Assembly (NCBI GenBank): GCA_013360185.1
Contig: JABWCO010000021.1
Span: 1 to 32,451 of the forward strand
DNA from: Bdellovibrio sp.
GTDB taxonomy: Bacteria; Bdellovibrionota; Bdellovibrionia; Bdellovibrionales; Bdellovibrionaceae
Reading direction: 5' to 3'
Length of the DNA: 32,451 nt
Shown here: positions 19,130 to 29,032 of the stretch, in pieces
How the letters are laid out: each line of letters starts with the position of its first letter
Position numbering within the stretch: the stretch's first letter is position 1
Notes under the pieces: generated by a model
The model's database searches: none
What the model saw: only the letters and a program-made list of their open reading frames with translations
Told to the model about the DNA's origin: nothing
Position numbers and translations under genes: made by a program

Positions 19130-21769
19130 CTAGGATGTCAAATCAGCTAAATGATTTAGCAGATCTAGGCGTTTAATAGGTTTTACAAGATGCAAATTGC
19201 ACCCGGCCTGAAGACTTTTTTCGATTTCTTCTTTCAAAGCGTAAGCCGTTAAAGCCCAGATCGGAATCGGGCGTAAGTTGTGGCTTTTTTCCCAGTTGCG
19301 AATTTCTTCTGTGGCAGCGACTCCATCCATCACGGGCATTTGCATGTCCATCAGGATTAAATCCACGGGCTGGGTCTTAAAAATGCGCACGGCTTCTTGG
19401 CCGTTTTCGGCTTCAATTAAAATGTGGGCCGTGTTTCTTAAATAGGCTTTCACTAAGTCGCGGTTGTCGACAGTATCATCAACTAATAGAATTTTCAAAA
19501 CTGTGGGACAGAGAGGGACCGAGAGACCGCGTTCTGTATCCTTGCGTTTTAAGCGCTGTTCGCTGGCGGGGCGAACTTTTGGTAAATCTAAAGTGAAACT
19601 AAAGGTGCTGCCGGCAAGACCATTGCTTTTGACAGTGATATCGCCACCCATCATGGTCGTAAGACGCTTGCAGATCGACAGGCCCAAACCGGTGCCACCG
19701 AACTTCCGCGTGATCGTAGAATCAGCTTGCGTGAAAGGGTGAAAGAGCTGTGTCAGTTTTTCTTCGGGAATGCCAATGCCTGAATCGGAAATTTCAAAAA
19801 GCAGATTGCCGGGTCGTTGTGGATCGTGATTTTCAGAAACCAATATATCAACGTGCCCTTGCTCTGTGAATTTAAGAGCATTGGAAAGCAAGTTTGAGAT
19901 AACCTGGCGGATGCGCGTCGGATCCCCCAGATAAATATTTTTAACTTCGTCTTTGATCTGCAAAGACAGACGCAAATCTTTCTGCTGCGCTTTTGGCAAA
20001 AACATCTCATAAACTTCCCCGGTGATCTCGGGAATATCAACTTCGGTCTTTTCCAAAGTTAAAAGACCCGCTTCGATCTTAGAGATGTCTAAAATGTCAT
20101 TCACGATATTGAGAAGATTTGCTCCGGCTTTTTTTGAAATATCAATATAGTAACGTTGCTCTTTGTCTAGCGGCGTGTCTTCAAGTAGATCCGCCATACC
20201 CAAGAGGACATTTAAAGGAGTGCGGATTTCATGGCTCATATTTGCCAGGAATTCGGATTTTGTTTGAGAGGCTTTTTCTAAGCGTAAATTCAGTTCATTT
20301 AGGTGCAAGGTTTTCTGTTTCACTATTTCTTGAACTCTAACGAAGCCATTGGCAATCGAAAGTAAAATCGCACAAATCAAAAACGTAAAAATAATCATCG
20401 AGACCAAAAACAATTCCGTATGAAGGTGTGAGCTTGCGCGCAGTGAGGTGTCTTGCGAAATATGGATTGTCCAGGCCAGGTTACCCAGAGTGAATAAATG
20501 TGAGGTGGTCATTGTCGGCGAAAAATGCAAGCGTTCGTCGGGCGTCGCTCGAGCGATTGAATCGACGATCATTCGCGTGGGACGTGCGGGGTCGGTTAGA
20601 GTGTGTTCGATGGTGATGCGATAACTCGGGTCTCCGATGATTTCCATCGTAGAAGCTAAAAGTTCTTGCAAACGAATCACTGCAAATAAGATTCCGCCCT
20701 TGTGGCCATACGCCAAAATAAGCAAAGGCGAGGGGTCCAACTGGGAAATCTTGATGGGCGCTAAGCTAATGACGTTATTATAAGTGCGCGCGACCTGAAA
20801 GATATTCTGAATTTCGGGTGAAAAAACGTGCTGGGGTTCCAAGAAGAACTTGTTTGTTTCAGGTGGAGCCACAAATTGGCTTTTGAAGCTGTTACGGCCT
20901 TGAAGGGGGGCCGCGATCCAGCCTAAGGTTCGAATTTCTGGGTTGTTGGCGTTTAACGTCTTAGCGAAGTCTTGGAACTCTTGAGACGTGACTCTTTCCG
21001 AGTTCGCGAAGAAGCTGCGCAAGGTGACTAAGATCGCCCGGTGAGTCCGTACGCTCTTTTCAATTTGGTTATAGGCTAAGTCTGATTTTTTTTGAAATTC
21101 CGCAAGGGATCTTTGATCTTCCACACTGTTTAAGAAATTAAGAGCCCCAACAATTAAAGCAAAACAAATAAATATGGGAAGGATAACGGTCTTGGTCGAA
21201 CGCATCCAAAAAGCCCGAGAGTCTTTAGAGAAAATCAATCCTAAGGGGCCGAACAGCAAACCTCCGGTGGCATCCCCAGAGAACCAGTGCAGCCAGTTCA
21301 TAAAGATATTTGCGGAATGCACTTGGTGTCCCAAAGTTAAAGCCAAAGTTCCTAGGCCGGAGCTGATCAGGGCCGCAAACGGGCCCGCTATGACCAGAAA
21401 TAAAATACAATCGCGTTCGATAAAAAATGCTTTTGGAAATTTGAGAAATCGTCGAATAAGTCTGTCAGCGGTGACTAAGCTTACGGTGTTGCCCATGGCG
21501 ATGGCGACAGCTAAGGAAAGCTGGGACATATCGCTTGGGGCGAATCTTGTAGACGTGATATTGATGAGCAAGGAACCCAGGAAAATCCCAGGCCAACGAT
21601 TTGGCCCCCACAAAAGCAGGGCCGCCAGTCCCAAGCCCGCTGGAGGCCATACGGGGGAGGCGTATCCCGGTGGCGTCGCCCACAATAGGCCCAGCTTTCC
21701 GGTCAAGAAGTATATCAAGACAATCACCAAGACTTGTAGGCCCGGGGATGTCCAAATTTTTTTGTTCAT
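19130..21769 (-). CDS. MASE1-CHASE hybrid sensor histidine kinase
   Basis: An 879-residue membrane kinase. An N-terminal MASE1 sensor of about eight membrane segments (1-210, with [18 protein letters not shown]) is followed by a periplasmic CHASE domain (about 225-445) and one more membrane segment (about 450-470). HisKA carries the phosphorylatable His513 in MSHEIRTP. The HATPase domain (about 615-730) shows [16 protein letters not shown] and GGTGLGLS. The C-terminal REC domain has acceptor Asp808 in [11 protein letters not shown] and a conserved Lys in LVKPI. There is no HPt, so phosphate must pass to a separate protein. The signal is unknown. It is transcribed alone. Confidence 0.92.
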
Positions 21770-24356: not shown

Positions 24357-26894
24357 TTGCAATCGGAAAATGCCGAAACGCCCTCTATGGGTTCGGTCTC
24401 TTTTTTTCGCAAATTTATGCAAAACTTTGGAGTGGAATTAGGTCTCTTAGGAGCCCTTGCGATAGCATTTTACCTCTTTAACGTGCCGGGCTTTGCGGTC
24501 ACCAAAAACCAAAATGGTGTAAGCTCCTTGTCCAATCAGGCCCGCACCACCGTTGAAAAAATTAAAGAAATCGTAGTGCAAGCATCGGAATCGGAAAAGG
24601 CTTTTATCAAGGCACGTCGCGAACAAGATCTGTCGGCGTATAATCAGTATGTCGGTCAGTTGAATCACCACATGCGCCAATTAATTCAATATTCAGGCAA
24701 TAATCCTGATGTGTACAAGCAGGTTTCCGAATTAAATAAGAATCTGCGCCTGCACTTTGAAGCCGTGAATGAAATTCTGACCTCGCGACAAAATGGCAAG
24801 TCTGTTTCGGGCCGAGTGCCGGCGAGCACCGGAATTATTCAATCTTTGGATGTATTACTTGAGTCCACGCAACCCCATGTCCCGGCATTTTTGCGTTGGG
24901 ATGTTATTGTCTCAGCTTTGGGGGGGTGCATATTCTTAATATTTTTAAGTCGCCTGTGGCAAGGGCAAGAGCTGCGTCGGCAAACGCAGCGATCACAACG
25001 TCTGCAAAGTCGTTCTATCTTGCTGGATACGATTTTAAACTCGATGAGTGAAGCACTGATCGTCGTCGACGCAAAGGGGCGCTTCACCCATTATAATGCC
25101 GCCGCACAAAGAATTATCGGCACCCGGATTAAGGAAGTTGCTTCCGAAGCGAGTGCCGAAGAGTTGGGTTTTTACGATGCCACAAGTGGCGAAATATATT
25201 CACGCAAACAATTGCCTTTCCATCGTTCTTTGCGGGGTGAGCAAATAGATGAATTAGAAATCTATGTACAGAACGAGACCCATGCAGAGGGCGTGTATAT
25301 CAGCGTGAGCAGCCGTCCTTTAAATGGGATCGATGGTGGTATTGACGGGGCTCTGGTGGTGTTCCGTGATGTGAGTCGTCGTAAGATGGTTGAGCAAGAG
25401 TGGCAGCGCGCGCGCGAAGCGGCTTTGGATGCCTCTTTAAAGAAGTCAGACTTTCTGGCAGCAATGAGTCACGAAATTCGTACGCCCATGAACGGTGTTC
25501 TTGGCATGACAACACTGCTCGCAGATACGGCGCTGAATGCTGAACAAAAAGAATACGTCGGCACTGTAAAGCGCTCTGCAGAGTCTTTGTTGATGCTTAT
25601 CAATGACATTTTAGATTATTCGAAAATCGAAGCGGGCAAAGTGACTTTGGATCCTCAGCCTTTTGATTTGCATCTGCTGGTTCAAGATGTGGTCGAGATG
25701 TTTAAACCGGCTATTTCGGAAAAGAACGTCGGCATTCGCTTACTAATTAACGATACGAGCAACTGGTGTTTTTCAGCCGATCAGGGACGTTTGCGCCAAG
25801 TCTTAGTCAATCTGATGGGTAATGCGGTGAAGTTCACAGAAAAAGGCTCGGTCATTTTAGAAGTCTCTAAGGCAGATGCCAACGAGGGATTCAGTACTTT
25901 AAAATTTGAAGTCAAAGATACAGGCCCCGGTCTTAAAGAAGAAGAGCGGCGTGCCCTATTCCAAAAATATTTCCAAACCAAGATGGGCATGAAATTTGGG
26001 GGGACAGGCTTAGGTCTGTCGATTTCCAAACAGTTGGTTGATCTTATGGGGGGTGAAATTGGGGTTGAAAGTGTTGTCGGCTTGGGCTCTAACTTTTGGT
26101 TTACGGTCACTCTGCCGAATGTAGCGCAACAGCAAGTGCCGCGCTTAAATGAAGTGAAATTCGCACCTGTATTTTCTGGCTATGTGTTGCTTGTCGAAGA
26201 TCAAGTGGTCAATCAAAAGGTCGCGCAGATGTATTTGCAAAAGTTAGGTCTTAAGGTCGATGTGGCCAATAACGGTCTGGTGGCTTTTGAAAAGTGCATG
26301 GCCCAAAACTATGATTTGGTGTTGATGGATTGTCAGATGCCGGTCCTTGATGGCTATGAAGCTACGCGCAGAATCCGTAAAGAGGAACAAAAGACGGGCA
26401 AGCGAGTTCCGATTGTGGCGCTGACCGCAGAGTCTTATCAAGACGAAAAAATATATCGCGAAATTGGCATGGATGATTTTTTAGCCAAGCCTTTGGAGTT
26501 GAACCGCTTAATGGAAGCCTTGCACAAGTGGATTAAGTCTTCTGGCGATTCCTTAGATCTATCGGCCTTAGATAAATTGCAGAACTATGTGGTCAATGAT
26601 CAGAACTTAATTGTGGCCCTGGTGGAGGAATTTGCCCTTTCGACTCCGGAATTGATTCAAACAATGCAGACTTCATTACAAAAGTCCGATTTGCGTGGAA
26701 TCAGTGAGGCCGCACATGCTTTAAAGTCCGCCAGTGCAACCTTAGGGGCAAAAAAATTATCTGAGCTTTGTGCTGCCTTGGAAGCCCTTGAAGATATTAA
26801 GAGCGCGCAAGCGCTTGTTGCAGAAGTAGAGCAGCAGTTTGACAAAAGCCTTAAAGACTTGAAAGACTATACACCTAAGAAACAAGTGGCATAA
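24357..26894 (+). CDS. Hybrid histidine kinase with PAS, REC and HPt domains
   Basis: An 845-residue membrane protein. Two membrane segments (about 27-45 and 180-200) enclose a helical periplasmic domain. A PAS domain follows (about 222-345). HisKA carries His372 in [11 protein letters not shown], and the HATPase shows NLMGNAVKF, DTGPGL and GGTGLGLS. The REC domain has Asp658 in LMDCQMPVLDG, and a C-terminal HPt has His787 in AHALKSAS. All four phosphorelay stations (His-Asp-His) except the final receiver are in one chain. The REC-PilZ-like regulator gene 13 bases downstream is a natural partner. The start is uncertain: TTG 24357, or ATG at 24387 or 24417. None has a good ribosome site. Confidence 0.9.
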   Translation: MQSENAETPSMGSVSFFRKFMQNFGVELGLLGALAIAFYLFNVPGFAVTKNQNGVSSLSNQARTTVEKIKEIVVQASESEKAFIKARREQDLSAYNQYVGQLNHHMRQLIQYSGNNPDVYKQVSELNKNLRLHFEAVNEILTSRQNGKSVSGRVPASTGIIQSLDVLLESTQPHVPAFLRWDVIVSALGGCIFLIFLSRLWQGQELRRQTQRSQRLQSRSILLDTILNSMSEALIVVDAKGRFTHYNAAAQRIIGTRIKEVASEASAEELGFYDATSGEIYSRKQLPFHRSLRGEQIDELEIYVQNETHAEGVYISVSSRPLNGIDGGIDGALVVFRDVSRRKMVEQEWQRAREAALDASLKKSDFLAAMSHEIRTPMNGVLGMTTLLADTALNAEQKEYVGTVKRSAESLLMLINDILDYSKIEAGKVTLDPQPFDLHLLVQDVVEMFKPAISEKNVGIRLLINDTSNWCFSADQGRLRQVLVNLMGNAVKFTEKGSVILEVSKADANEGFSTLKFEVKDTGPGLKEEERRALFQKYFQTKMGMKFGGTGLGLSISKQLVDLMGGEIGVESVVGLGSNFWFTVTLPNVAQQQVPRLNEVKFAPVFSGYVLLVEDQVVNQKVAQMYLQKLGLKVDVANNGLVAFEKCMAQNYDLVLMDCQMPVLDGYEATRRIRKEEQKTGKRVPIVALTAESYQDEKIYREIGMDDFLAKPLELNRLMEALHKWIKSSGDSLDLSALDKLQNYVVNDQNLIVALVEEFALSTPELIQTMQTSLQKSDLRGISEAAHALKSASATLGAKKLSELCAALEALEDIKSAQALVAEVEQQFDKSLKDLKDYTPKKQVA

Positions 26895-26907: not shown

Positions 26908-27594
26908 ATGGCAAAGATTCTTATCGTTGACGATCAAAAAAGTATTCTCCTTACGCTAGAAGCGTTATTGAAACAAGACGGCCACATCGTGACGGCTTGT
27001 ACGAATGCTGTTGATGCAATCAAGATTTTAGCTGCGCAAGCTTTTGACTTAGTTATCACTGATGTGATCATGCCCGGTGGCAGTGATGGTTATACCTTAA
27101 TCAAAGCCATCCGTAACCACCCGGTACTGGCAAAGATGCCGGTTATTTTGTTAACGGGAAAACGGGAAAAAGTGGATGTAGAAAAGGGAATCGAGTCCGG
27201 CGCAACAGATTACGTGGTGAAGCCGATTGATCCAGAATTTTTATTGGTGAAAGTACGCCATCTATTACCCCCTGGTTCTGTTGTAAAGACGGAATTTGTT
27301 TCTGCAGCGGTTAGCTATAAAGGTGCGTGGGACATAAAAACAGAAATTACGGCCATTTCAGAACTTGGTTTTGATATCGTCAGCAGTCTGCCCTTGCCTC
27401 TTGGAAAAATCTTAAAGTTGCAAAGTCCGATATTTGACGAAATCGGCATTCCGCCGATTCCGTTGCGCATTGATTCTTGTGATGAAGTCGCCGGAAACGA
27501 TCCCGTATATCGGATAAAAGCCCTTTTTGTCGGCGTGACTGAAAAAGAGCTCTCTCCGATCCGCGTGTGGACACGCACTAAAAAAAGTTTCTAG
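26908..27594 (+). CDS. Response regulator with REC and PilZ-like output domain
   Basis: A 228-residue protein. Residues 1-120 are a receiver (ILIVDDQKS, acceptor Asp52 in VITDVIMPG, conserved Thr/Lys in LLTGK and VVKPID). After a short linker, residues ~130-225 have the strand pattern of a PilZ-like barrel (KTEITAISELGFDIVSSLPLPLGKIL). The two c-di-GMP motifs RxxxR and NxSxxG are not seen, so this is probably a degenerate PilZ that does not bind the nucleotide. Ribosome site GGGGAG precedes the ATG. It is likely the final receiver of the preceding hybrid kinase. A short palindrome (27589-27598) at the stop faces a convergent gene. Confidence 0.82.
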   Translation: MAKILIVDDQKSILLTLEALLKQDGHIVTACTNAVDAIKILAAQAFDLVITDVIMPGGSDGYTLIKAIRNHPVLAKMPVILLTGKREKVDVEKGIESGATDYVVKPIDPEFLLVKVRHLLPPGSVVKTEFVSAAVSYKGAWDIKTEITAISELGFDIVSSLPLPLGKILKLQSPIFDEIGIPPIPLRIDSCDEVAGNDPVYRIKALFVGVTEKELSPIRVWTRTKKSF

Positions 27595-27598
27595 AAAT

Positions 27599-28978
27599 TT
27601 ATTTACACATCTCCATAGATTTAACCATTGAGATGATCTTGTTGATCTGCTGATACTTACTATTTGTCTTAATCACAGCCCAGTAAGCTCCCGAACCCAC
27701 CATTATTTTCCCTGTACGTGCGACCTGTTTTGCCATGATACCGACTCCGCAATGCAAGTTGATATAGGGATCTAAGATCGTCTTGCGAGGATCTGTGGGA
27801 CTTAAGTTTTTATCTTTCGACCAATCAAATTTACAAAAGCTCCAGCCGGTGATGTCTTGGTAAGACAACTGTAACAAGCCTTCTGAATAAACTGGTTTTT
27901 TTGTTACGGGGTCTGTGCCCATCGTGGTTTCTTGCATGCGCGAAAGGGGGTTGTAAGAACTTTCATATTTTGCCATGGCGACAAAAAGTTGTGACCACAC
28001 ATTGGCGCGCTCCTGGGTGCTTAAGCTGGCATAACGCGGGCAGAATTGGTCCATATCATCGGCACCCTTTAACAAGGAACTCCAGTCTTCTTGGACCAAT
28101 TTCATTAAGTACTGCGACCATTGCTTGCGCTCTGGTTTGCTTGAAGCCTCCCAGGAAAGCATGGTCATCTCCTGCGGAGTTGTTGGCACAGGAGGCGCTG
28201 GCGTGGGACGTTCGTTGCCGCCTTTGTCGACGACAGCGTAAATCAAGCTGCCACCTTTTAGATACTTGATCACGGCATCGCGGTTGGACTGTGTCACGGC
28301 CGGGCACCCCCAGCTGCGACCTTGGATTACATTCGACTCTTGCACGTAATCCGCCCCATGTATGACGATGGCTCTGGCGCGTGCATTTGAGTTCGTAGAG
28401 GAAAGGCCATCAAGTCTTAACGACAAACCGTGGCTGCCATAGTAAGTTTCCGCGGCTTTATAAAAGCCCAGCGAACTCGCATTGGAGCCAGACACGTTGC
28501 TAAACTTTTCTGCGAAGCCATCGTGATTGCTGTCGGAACCTTTACCGTGGGCGGTGTGCAGAGCCCAGACGGATCCGGTTTTCATATTAATAATATAAAA
28601 ACGTTTTTCTTTCGAACTTTGTCCAAAGTTAATGACCGAAACATACTGAGTATTAGCAAACTTCACTTTGTTCTGGTGGAAGTACAACAATACCTCCGTC
28701 AAAGCTTGGTATGGAACGATGCGAGTCGGATCAACATAGTCATAGTTTTTTAAAATTTCATCGGCGTCGCTGCTGGCGAGATCTGTAGATCCGCTATCTA
28801 CAAAACCAATGGGTTCAGTAGTGTCTGGTGTATCAACAACGGCTTCTTCACTTGTGTCATCTGGCAAAGAGATTTCGTCGGTATTGCCTGCGCAGGCGGC
28901 TAGGGTTAAAAATGTGGCTGTCACTAAAATGGTTCTGAAACGTGAGAATAATGTGATTTCACTTGGCGTCTGATTCAT
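27599..28978 (-). CDS. Lipoprotein fusing an L,D-transpeptidase-type domain to a lysozyme-like domain
   Basis: A 459-residue protein with a lipoprotein signal (lipobox LAAC, Cys29; +2 Ala favours the outer membrane) and an acidic linker to about residue 70. Residues ~75-260 match the YkuD_2-type murein L,D-transpeptidase catalytic family, with VIHGADY (His207) and RSWGCPAV (Cys225). Residues ~315-455 resemble a lysozyme-like SLT domain, with AKYESSYNP (Glu339 as catalytic acid), EGLLQLSYQD and a LHCGVGIMA segment. One enzyme could thus alter peptide crosslinks and cut glycan strands. That suits prey-wall remodelling, though this is an inference. Ribosome site GGAGG precedes the ATG. Confidence 0.85.
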   Translation of the reverse strand: MNQTPSEITLFSRFRTILVTATFLTLAACAGNTDEISLPDDTSEEAVVDTPDTTEPIGFVDSGSTDLASSDADEILKNYDYVDPTRIVPYQALTEVLLYFHQNKVKFANTQYVSVINFGQSSKEKRFYIINMKTGSVWALHTAHGKGSDSNHDGFAEKFSNVSGSNASSLGFYKAAETYYGSHGLSLRLDGLSSTNSNARARAIVIHGADYVQESNVIQGRSWGCPAVTQSNRDAVIKYLKGGSLIYAVVDKGGNERPTPAPPVPTTPQEMTMLSWEASSKPERKQWSQYLMKLVQEDWSSLLKGADDMDQFCPRYASLSTQERANVWSQLFVAMAKYESSYNPLSRMQETTMGTDPVTKKPVYSEGLLQLSYQDITGWSFCKFDWSKDKNLSPTDPRKTILDPYINLHCGVGIMAKQVARTGKIMVGSGAYWAVIKTNSKYQQINKIISMVKSMEMCK

Positions 28979-29032
28979 TATTCCTCCAATAGGATTTGTC
29001 CTTTAGCAAAGCCTAAAAGAGGAAGATTACAG

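Follow-up and report, generated by a model that had tools for sequence, protein, structure and literature searches.

A predicted L,D-transpeptidase–lysozyme fusion in Bdellovibrio: a new combination of two known cell-wall enzyme families

Bdellovibrio bacteriovorus HD100 encodes three stand-alone deacetylation-specific lysozymes (Dsl), namely DslA (Bd0314), DslB (Bd1413) and DslC (Bd1440), whose substrate is deacetylated, not acetylated, peptidoglycan (PMC7511926). DslA requires both E143 and E154 for activity, Y228 is tied to its specificity for the deacetylated wall, and its lipobox led to the proposal that it is displayed on the outer membrane (PMC7511926). A single catalytic Glu without a second acid, by comparison, marks lytic transglycosylases as opposed to hydrolytic lysozymes (PMC7511926). 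L,D-transpeptidases (LDTs) of Bdellovibrio modify the prey wall during invasion (PMC12546842), and L,D-crosslinks were shown to impede lytic transglycosylases while leaving hydrolytic lysozymes unaffected (PMC11390936). Active work on how an intraperiplasmic predator preserves its prey shell and later opens it has centred on HD100, a strain without the protein described here.

The gene and its two domains

The window, that is, the whole stretch of DNA analysed, is an entire contig of 32,451 nucleotides from a Bdellovibrio sp. genome of 3.54 Mb that is 96% complete. It carries a gene for one chain in which an LDT domain is followed by a Dsl domain (Table 1). The start codon is ATG, with GGAGG four bases upstream as read from the sequence. 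An assembly chimera was ruled out, because full-length orthologues are found in 15 other genomes, several of them single-contig. The gene is convergent with a response regulator gene (ending at 27594), itself preceded by a hybrid histidine kinase gene, and this neighbourhood is common to several orthologues. The window holds two related hybrid histidine kinase genes (19133-21769 and 24357-26891); the fusion gene is next to the second of them and its response regulator gene.

Table 1 Features of the fusion gene and its product in the window
Feature	Position	Strand	Evidence
LDT-Dsl fusion protein gene	27599..28978	-	ORF, 459 aa (range includes the stop codon); orthologues in another 15 Bdellovibrio genomes
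Probable ribosome-binding site GGAGGA	28982..28987	-	Read from sequence
Putative signal peptide with lipobox LAAC (C29), residues 1-29	28892..28978	-	Read from sequence by eye
Variable, disordered segment, residues 30-68	28775..28891	-	pLDDT <50 for residues 1-65; dN/dS above that of domains
YkuD_2 LDT domain, residues 72-252	28223..28765	-	PF13645 E 1.8e-48; YkuD fold Z 11.4; dN/dS 0.01-0.12
His207, LDT active site	28358..28360	-	Present in 57/57 stand-alone LDTs and 12/12 fusions
Cys225, LDT nucleophile, in SWGCPA	28304..28306	-	56/57 stand-alone LDTs (remaining one gapped) and 12/12 fusions
Pro/Thr-rich linker, residues 253-268	28175..28222	-	Length differs among orthologues; residues 261-266 pLDDT <50
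Dsl domain, residues 269-459	27602..28174	-	6TA9 Z 21.6; SLT barely above cut-off; dN/dS 0.01-0.08
Glu339 = DslA E143 (general acid)	27962..27964	-	DslA alignment; 63/63 stand-alone Dsl
Glu350 = DslA E154 (second catalytic Glu)	27929..27931	-	DslA alignment; 62/63 stand-alone Dsl
Tyr432-Trp433 = DslA Y228-W229, linked to deacetyl specificity	27680..27685	-	Y 62/63, W 63/63 stand-alone Dsl; 12/12 fusions

The product is probably a lipoprotein, exported and lipid-anchored, as its N terminus suggests: the LAAC motif occupies residues 26-29, and its Cys is kept in all orthologues except L017, L019 and L020, whose signal regions end in an AANA-type sequence and resemble substrates of signal peptidase I. 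No NCBIfam family was matched, and the PHROGs matches were weak. A structure model built on a 132-sequence alignment, which replaced a first model based on 12 fusions (pLDDT 60), reached a mean pLDDT of 86, with most ten-residue blocks of both domains at 92-98; its pTM of 0.57 leaves the arrangement of the domains uncertain.

The original prediction assigned the motifs HGADY and SWGCPAV to a YkuD_2-type LDT, and the domain search bears this out, with a Pfam YkuD_2 match (PF13645) at residues 89-248 (E 1.8e-48; 164.6 bits against a cut-off of 27). HGADY contains the catalytic H207 and SWGCPAV the Ser-x-Gly-Cys motif S222-W-G-C225, all invariant in the aligned fusions. In the model, residues from about 100 to 252 align with YkuD-type LDTs at Z scores of about 10-11, among them Bacillus subtilis YkuD (Z 11.4, 2.7 Å, 110 residues). 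Known counterparts in HD100 include two stand-alone YkuD_2 LDTs, one encoded at 737.7 kb and one at 1326.7 kb; they are probably Bd0782 and Bd1402 of PMC11656739. They have the same domain (57-60% identity over about 240-250 aa) and a similar lipobox-type start, but stop where the linker of the fusion begins.

The same prediction placed a lysozyme-like segment downstream, and the fold on which that proposal hinged is present in the model. Residues 269-459 superpose on DslA (6TA9) with a Z score of 21.6 (2.3 Å, 174 of 182 residues), and DslA was the only match when the C-terminal half was searched by sequence against the PDB (6TA9/6TAF/6TAD, E about 1e-12). The segment AKYESSYNP holds E339, and EGLLQLSY corresponds to residues 366-373. 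In an alignment with HD100 DslA (L191; 254 aa, the same length as the 6TA9 chain sequence), E339, S340, E350, S365, Y432 and W433 correspond to E143, S144, E154, S166, Y228 and W229; DslA M150 is replaced by Ser346, and DslB and DslC likewise have Ser. Pfam matched residues 321-443 to the lytic transglycosylase family SLT (PF01464), although only marginally (21.9 bits against a cut-off of 21.3), and we rejected a simple lytic transglycosylase because the second Glu, E350, is present and conserved. By modelled fold and aligned residues, the C-terminal half is thus a predicted deacetylation-specific lysozyme of the DslA/B/C family. It is of the DslB/DslC type and 63% identical to the source genome's own stand-alone copy. 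The three HD100 enzymes share its fold and its catalytic and specificity residues but are stand-alone, whereas here the Dsl domain sits behind an LDT.

Both halves are under purifying selection: pairwise dN/dS (Nei-Gojobori, where defined; several dS values saturated) is 0.01-0.12 in the LDT half and 0.01-0.08 in the Dsl half, with looser values in the linker and the N-terminal segment. Each aligned fusion retains an intact active site in either half.

Distribution and history of the fusion

Both domains occur in one ORF in 16 of 24 Bdellovibrio genomes (G000, G001, G003, G005, G007, G008, G009, G011, G013, G014 and G017-G022). Carriers appear to include NC01 (G005), B. reynosensis LBG001 (G017), SKB1291214 (G021), KM01 (G022) and ZAP7 (G011), whereas genomes that we take to be HD100 (G006), Tiberius (G002), kdesi (G015), SSB218315 (G023) and W (G012) are without it. 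Across 369 genomes of the phylum, a profile search (E 1e-8) detected the Dsl domain in 111, but the fusion was not found outside the predatory genus Bdellovibrio among the matches listed; a wide occurrence outside predators, which would have counted against the earlier proposal, was thus not seen in the genomes searched. Long Dsl ORFs outside the genus (L114-L122, among the matches listed) gave no LDT with the LDT profile, and Pfam, run on nine, found SLT only. Beyond the phylum, the search was a GTDB-wide pattern scan led by the LDT motifs, which returned 51 LDT loci, three of them fusions and all three from Bdellovibrio sp. Neither domain was found in G025, taken for the epibiotic P. exovorus. 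We found no description of an LDT-Dsl fusion in the open-access papers searched; it joins two known families in an arrangement that is new.

Two further loci stood out in these searches. Three neighbouring long Dsl ORFs (L119, G226:C542:2402-5028; 356-393 aa) carry N-terminal extensions, and Pfam gave no match for the one searched (381 aa). An LDT from a metagenome-assembled genome of Candidatus Riflebacteria (L052, JACQZM010000134.1; 49% identical) falls among Bdellovibrio-type LDTs, through either transfer or mis-binning.

Trees of the two domains, both quick searches with many open forks, suggest that the pairing has changed over time. In the LDT tree, 16 fusion halves form one group with two stand-alone LDTs, those of G010 and G035 (support for the whole group, 87). 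The G010 protein is nested among KM01-like fusions (support 99) and is best read as a loss of the lysozyme half; this orthologous LDT occupies the same locus (L022 / L169, G010:C5:1440244-1440951), and the G010 genome carries two DslA-type genes at other sites. In the Dsl tree, 15 fusion halves lie among the genus's DslB/C-type enzymes, and that of G019 is sister to G019's own DslA (SH-aLRT 99), which indicates that the LDT there took on another Dsl partner. The G019 fusion (L016 / L167, G019:C6:60794-62173) thus combines the same LDT with a DslA-type lysozyme half, 70% identical to HD100 DslA. In a sister genus (g3), G203, G206 and G209 each have an LDT gene followed directly, after 72-82 bp and on the same strand, by a Dsl gene (L138, L113/L154 and L111), probably one locus in few genomes; these tandem LDTs branch elsewhere in the tree, so LDT and Dsl came together separately there.

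Proposed action on the prey wall

We propose, with moderate confidence, that the fusion is a bifunctional cell-wall enzyme for prey peptidoglycan that the predator has deacetylated. The LDT half (Cys225/His207) would make or edit L,D-links, or exchange D-amino acids, in the bdelloplast wall, reworking or strengthening it. The Dsl half (Glu339/Glu350, Tyr432-Trp433) would be a hydrolytic muramidase, cutting glycan in which glucosamine replaces GlcNAc, and may spare the predator's acetylated wall; since assayed DslA/B/C members are deacetyl-specific, its family points to the prey wall and not to the predator's own. Polysaccharide deacetylase genes are present in the source genome. Because lysozymes, unlike lytic transglycosylases, are not inhibited by L,D-crosslinks (PMC11390936), a two-Glu lysozyme is a compatible partner for an LDT, and a prey wall stiffened by L,D-links would still yield to the fusion enzyme. 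If the two activities follow an order, strengthening would come first and cutting at exit. A DslA-type gene was not detected in the source genome, where HD100 DslA matched only the fusion and a stand-alone copy on C98 (both 32%); allowing for the 4% of sequence missing, these two may share the exit work. The fusion is not essential to predation, because HD100 and W lack it and one species has lost the lysozyme half.

The reaction of the LDT half leaves room for a different account, in which this half is an L,D-carboxypeptidase or endopeptidase and both halves dismantle the prey wall, most likely at exit. Csd6, Pgp2 and Bd1075 are among its structural matches, and because these LDT-fold relatives are L,D-carboxypeptidases, the fold alone does not fix the reaction; nor can it be read from a closer relative, since a PDB sequence search for YkuD_2 found no solved structure. 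A lysozyme partner also suits a degradative role. These hydrolytic proteins are only 11-16% identical to the LDT half, however, which is YkuD_2 by sequence; Bd1075 itself (PDB 7O21), described in PMC8938487 as a peptidoglycan hydrolase with a part in shaping the curvature of the predator's own cell, has a similar LDT-like fold (Z 9.8) but 16% identity. We regard a purely degradative enzyme as unlikely.

Modular wall hydrolases often bear binding domains, and the lysozyme half has been lost or swapped while the LDT half was retained, as might be expected if the LDT half mainly bound stem peptides to keep the lysozyme on the wall, its catalysis being of minor importance. That all aligned fusions keep H207 and C225, that purifying selection on the LDT half is strong and that G010 retains the LDT alone, odd for mere targeting, make this improbable. 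Less credible still is a fusion devoted to remodelling the predator's own wall, with no function in prey. As a lipoprotein it could be turned towards the periplasm of the predator, but the predator wall is reported to stay acetylated, and so a poor Dsl substrate (PMC7511926), and several Bdellovibrio are without the fusion.

The preferred reading, in which one enzyme acts in two ways on the deacetylated prey wall, admits a more speculative extension to which we give only a small chance. The LDT half would stiffen the prey wall with L,D-links that shield the bdelloplast from lytic transglycosylases of the prey, phage or rival predators, and the deacetyl-specific lysozyme would open the same wall on demand, like a lock made with its own key. 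A conserved single chain of LDT and predicted deacetyl-specific lysozyme, re-paired at least once, would tie the upkeep of the shell to its opening, and point mutants of either active site could test that link.

Probable fused copies in pangenome counts

The fusion may already lie within a published gene cluster. In PMC11656739, a Bdellovibrio 'transglycosylase' cluster contains Bd1413 and Bd1440, with one member each in KM01, ZAP7 and SKB1291214; the passages on this cluster that were consulted make no mention of an LDT fusion and take the lower count as gene loss. The genomes matching these three strains each have one DslB/C-type domain, the fused one, so the fusion is probably counted in the cluster without being noted as such. 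This suggests that pangenome counts of 'transglycosylases' can conceal fused enzymes. DslA-type genes also vary in number: G017 carries three in a row (L194, G017:C1:220880-222943) and a fourth about 28 kb away, which fits the four copies given for LBG001 in PMC11656739.
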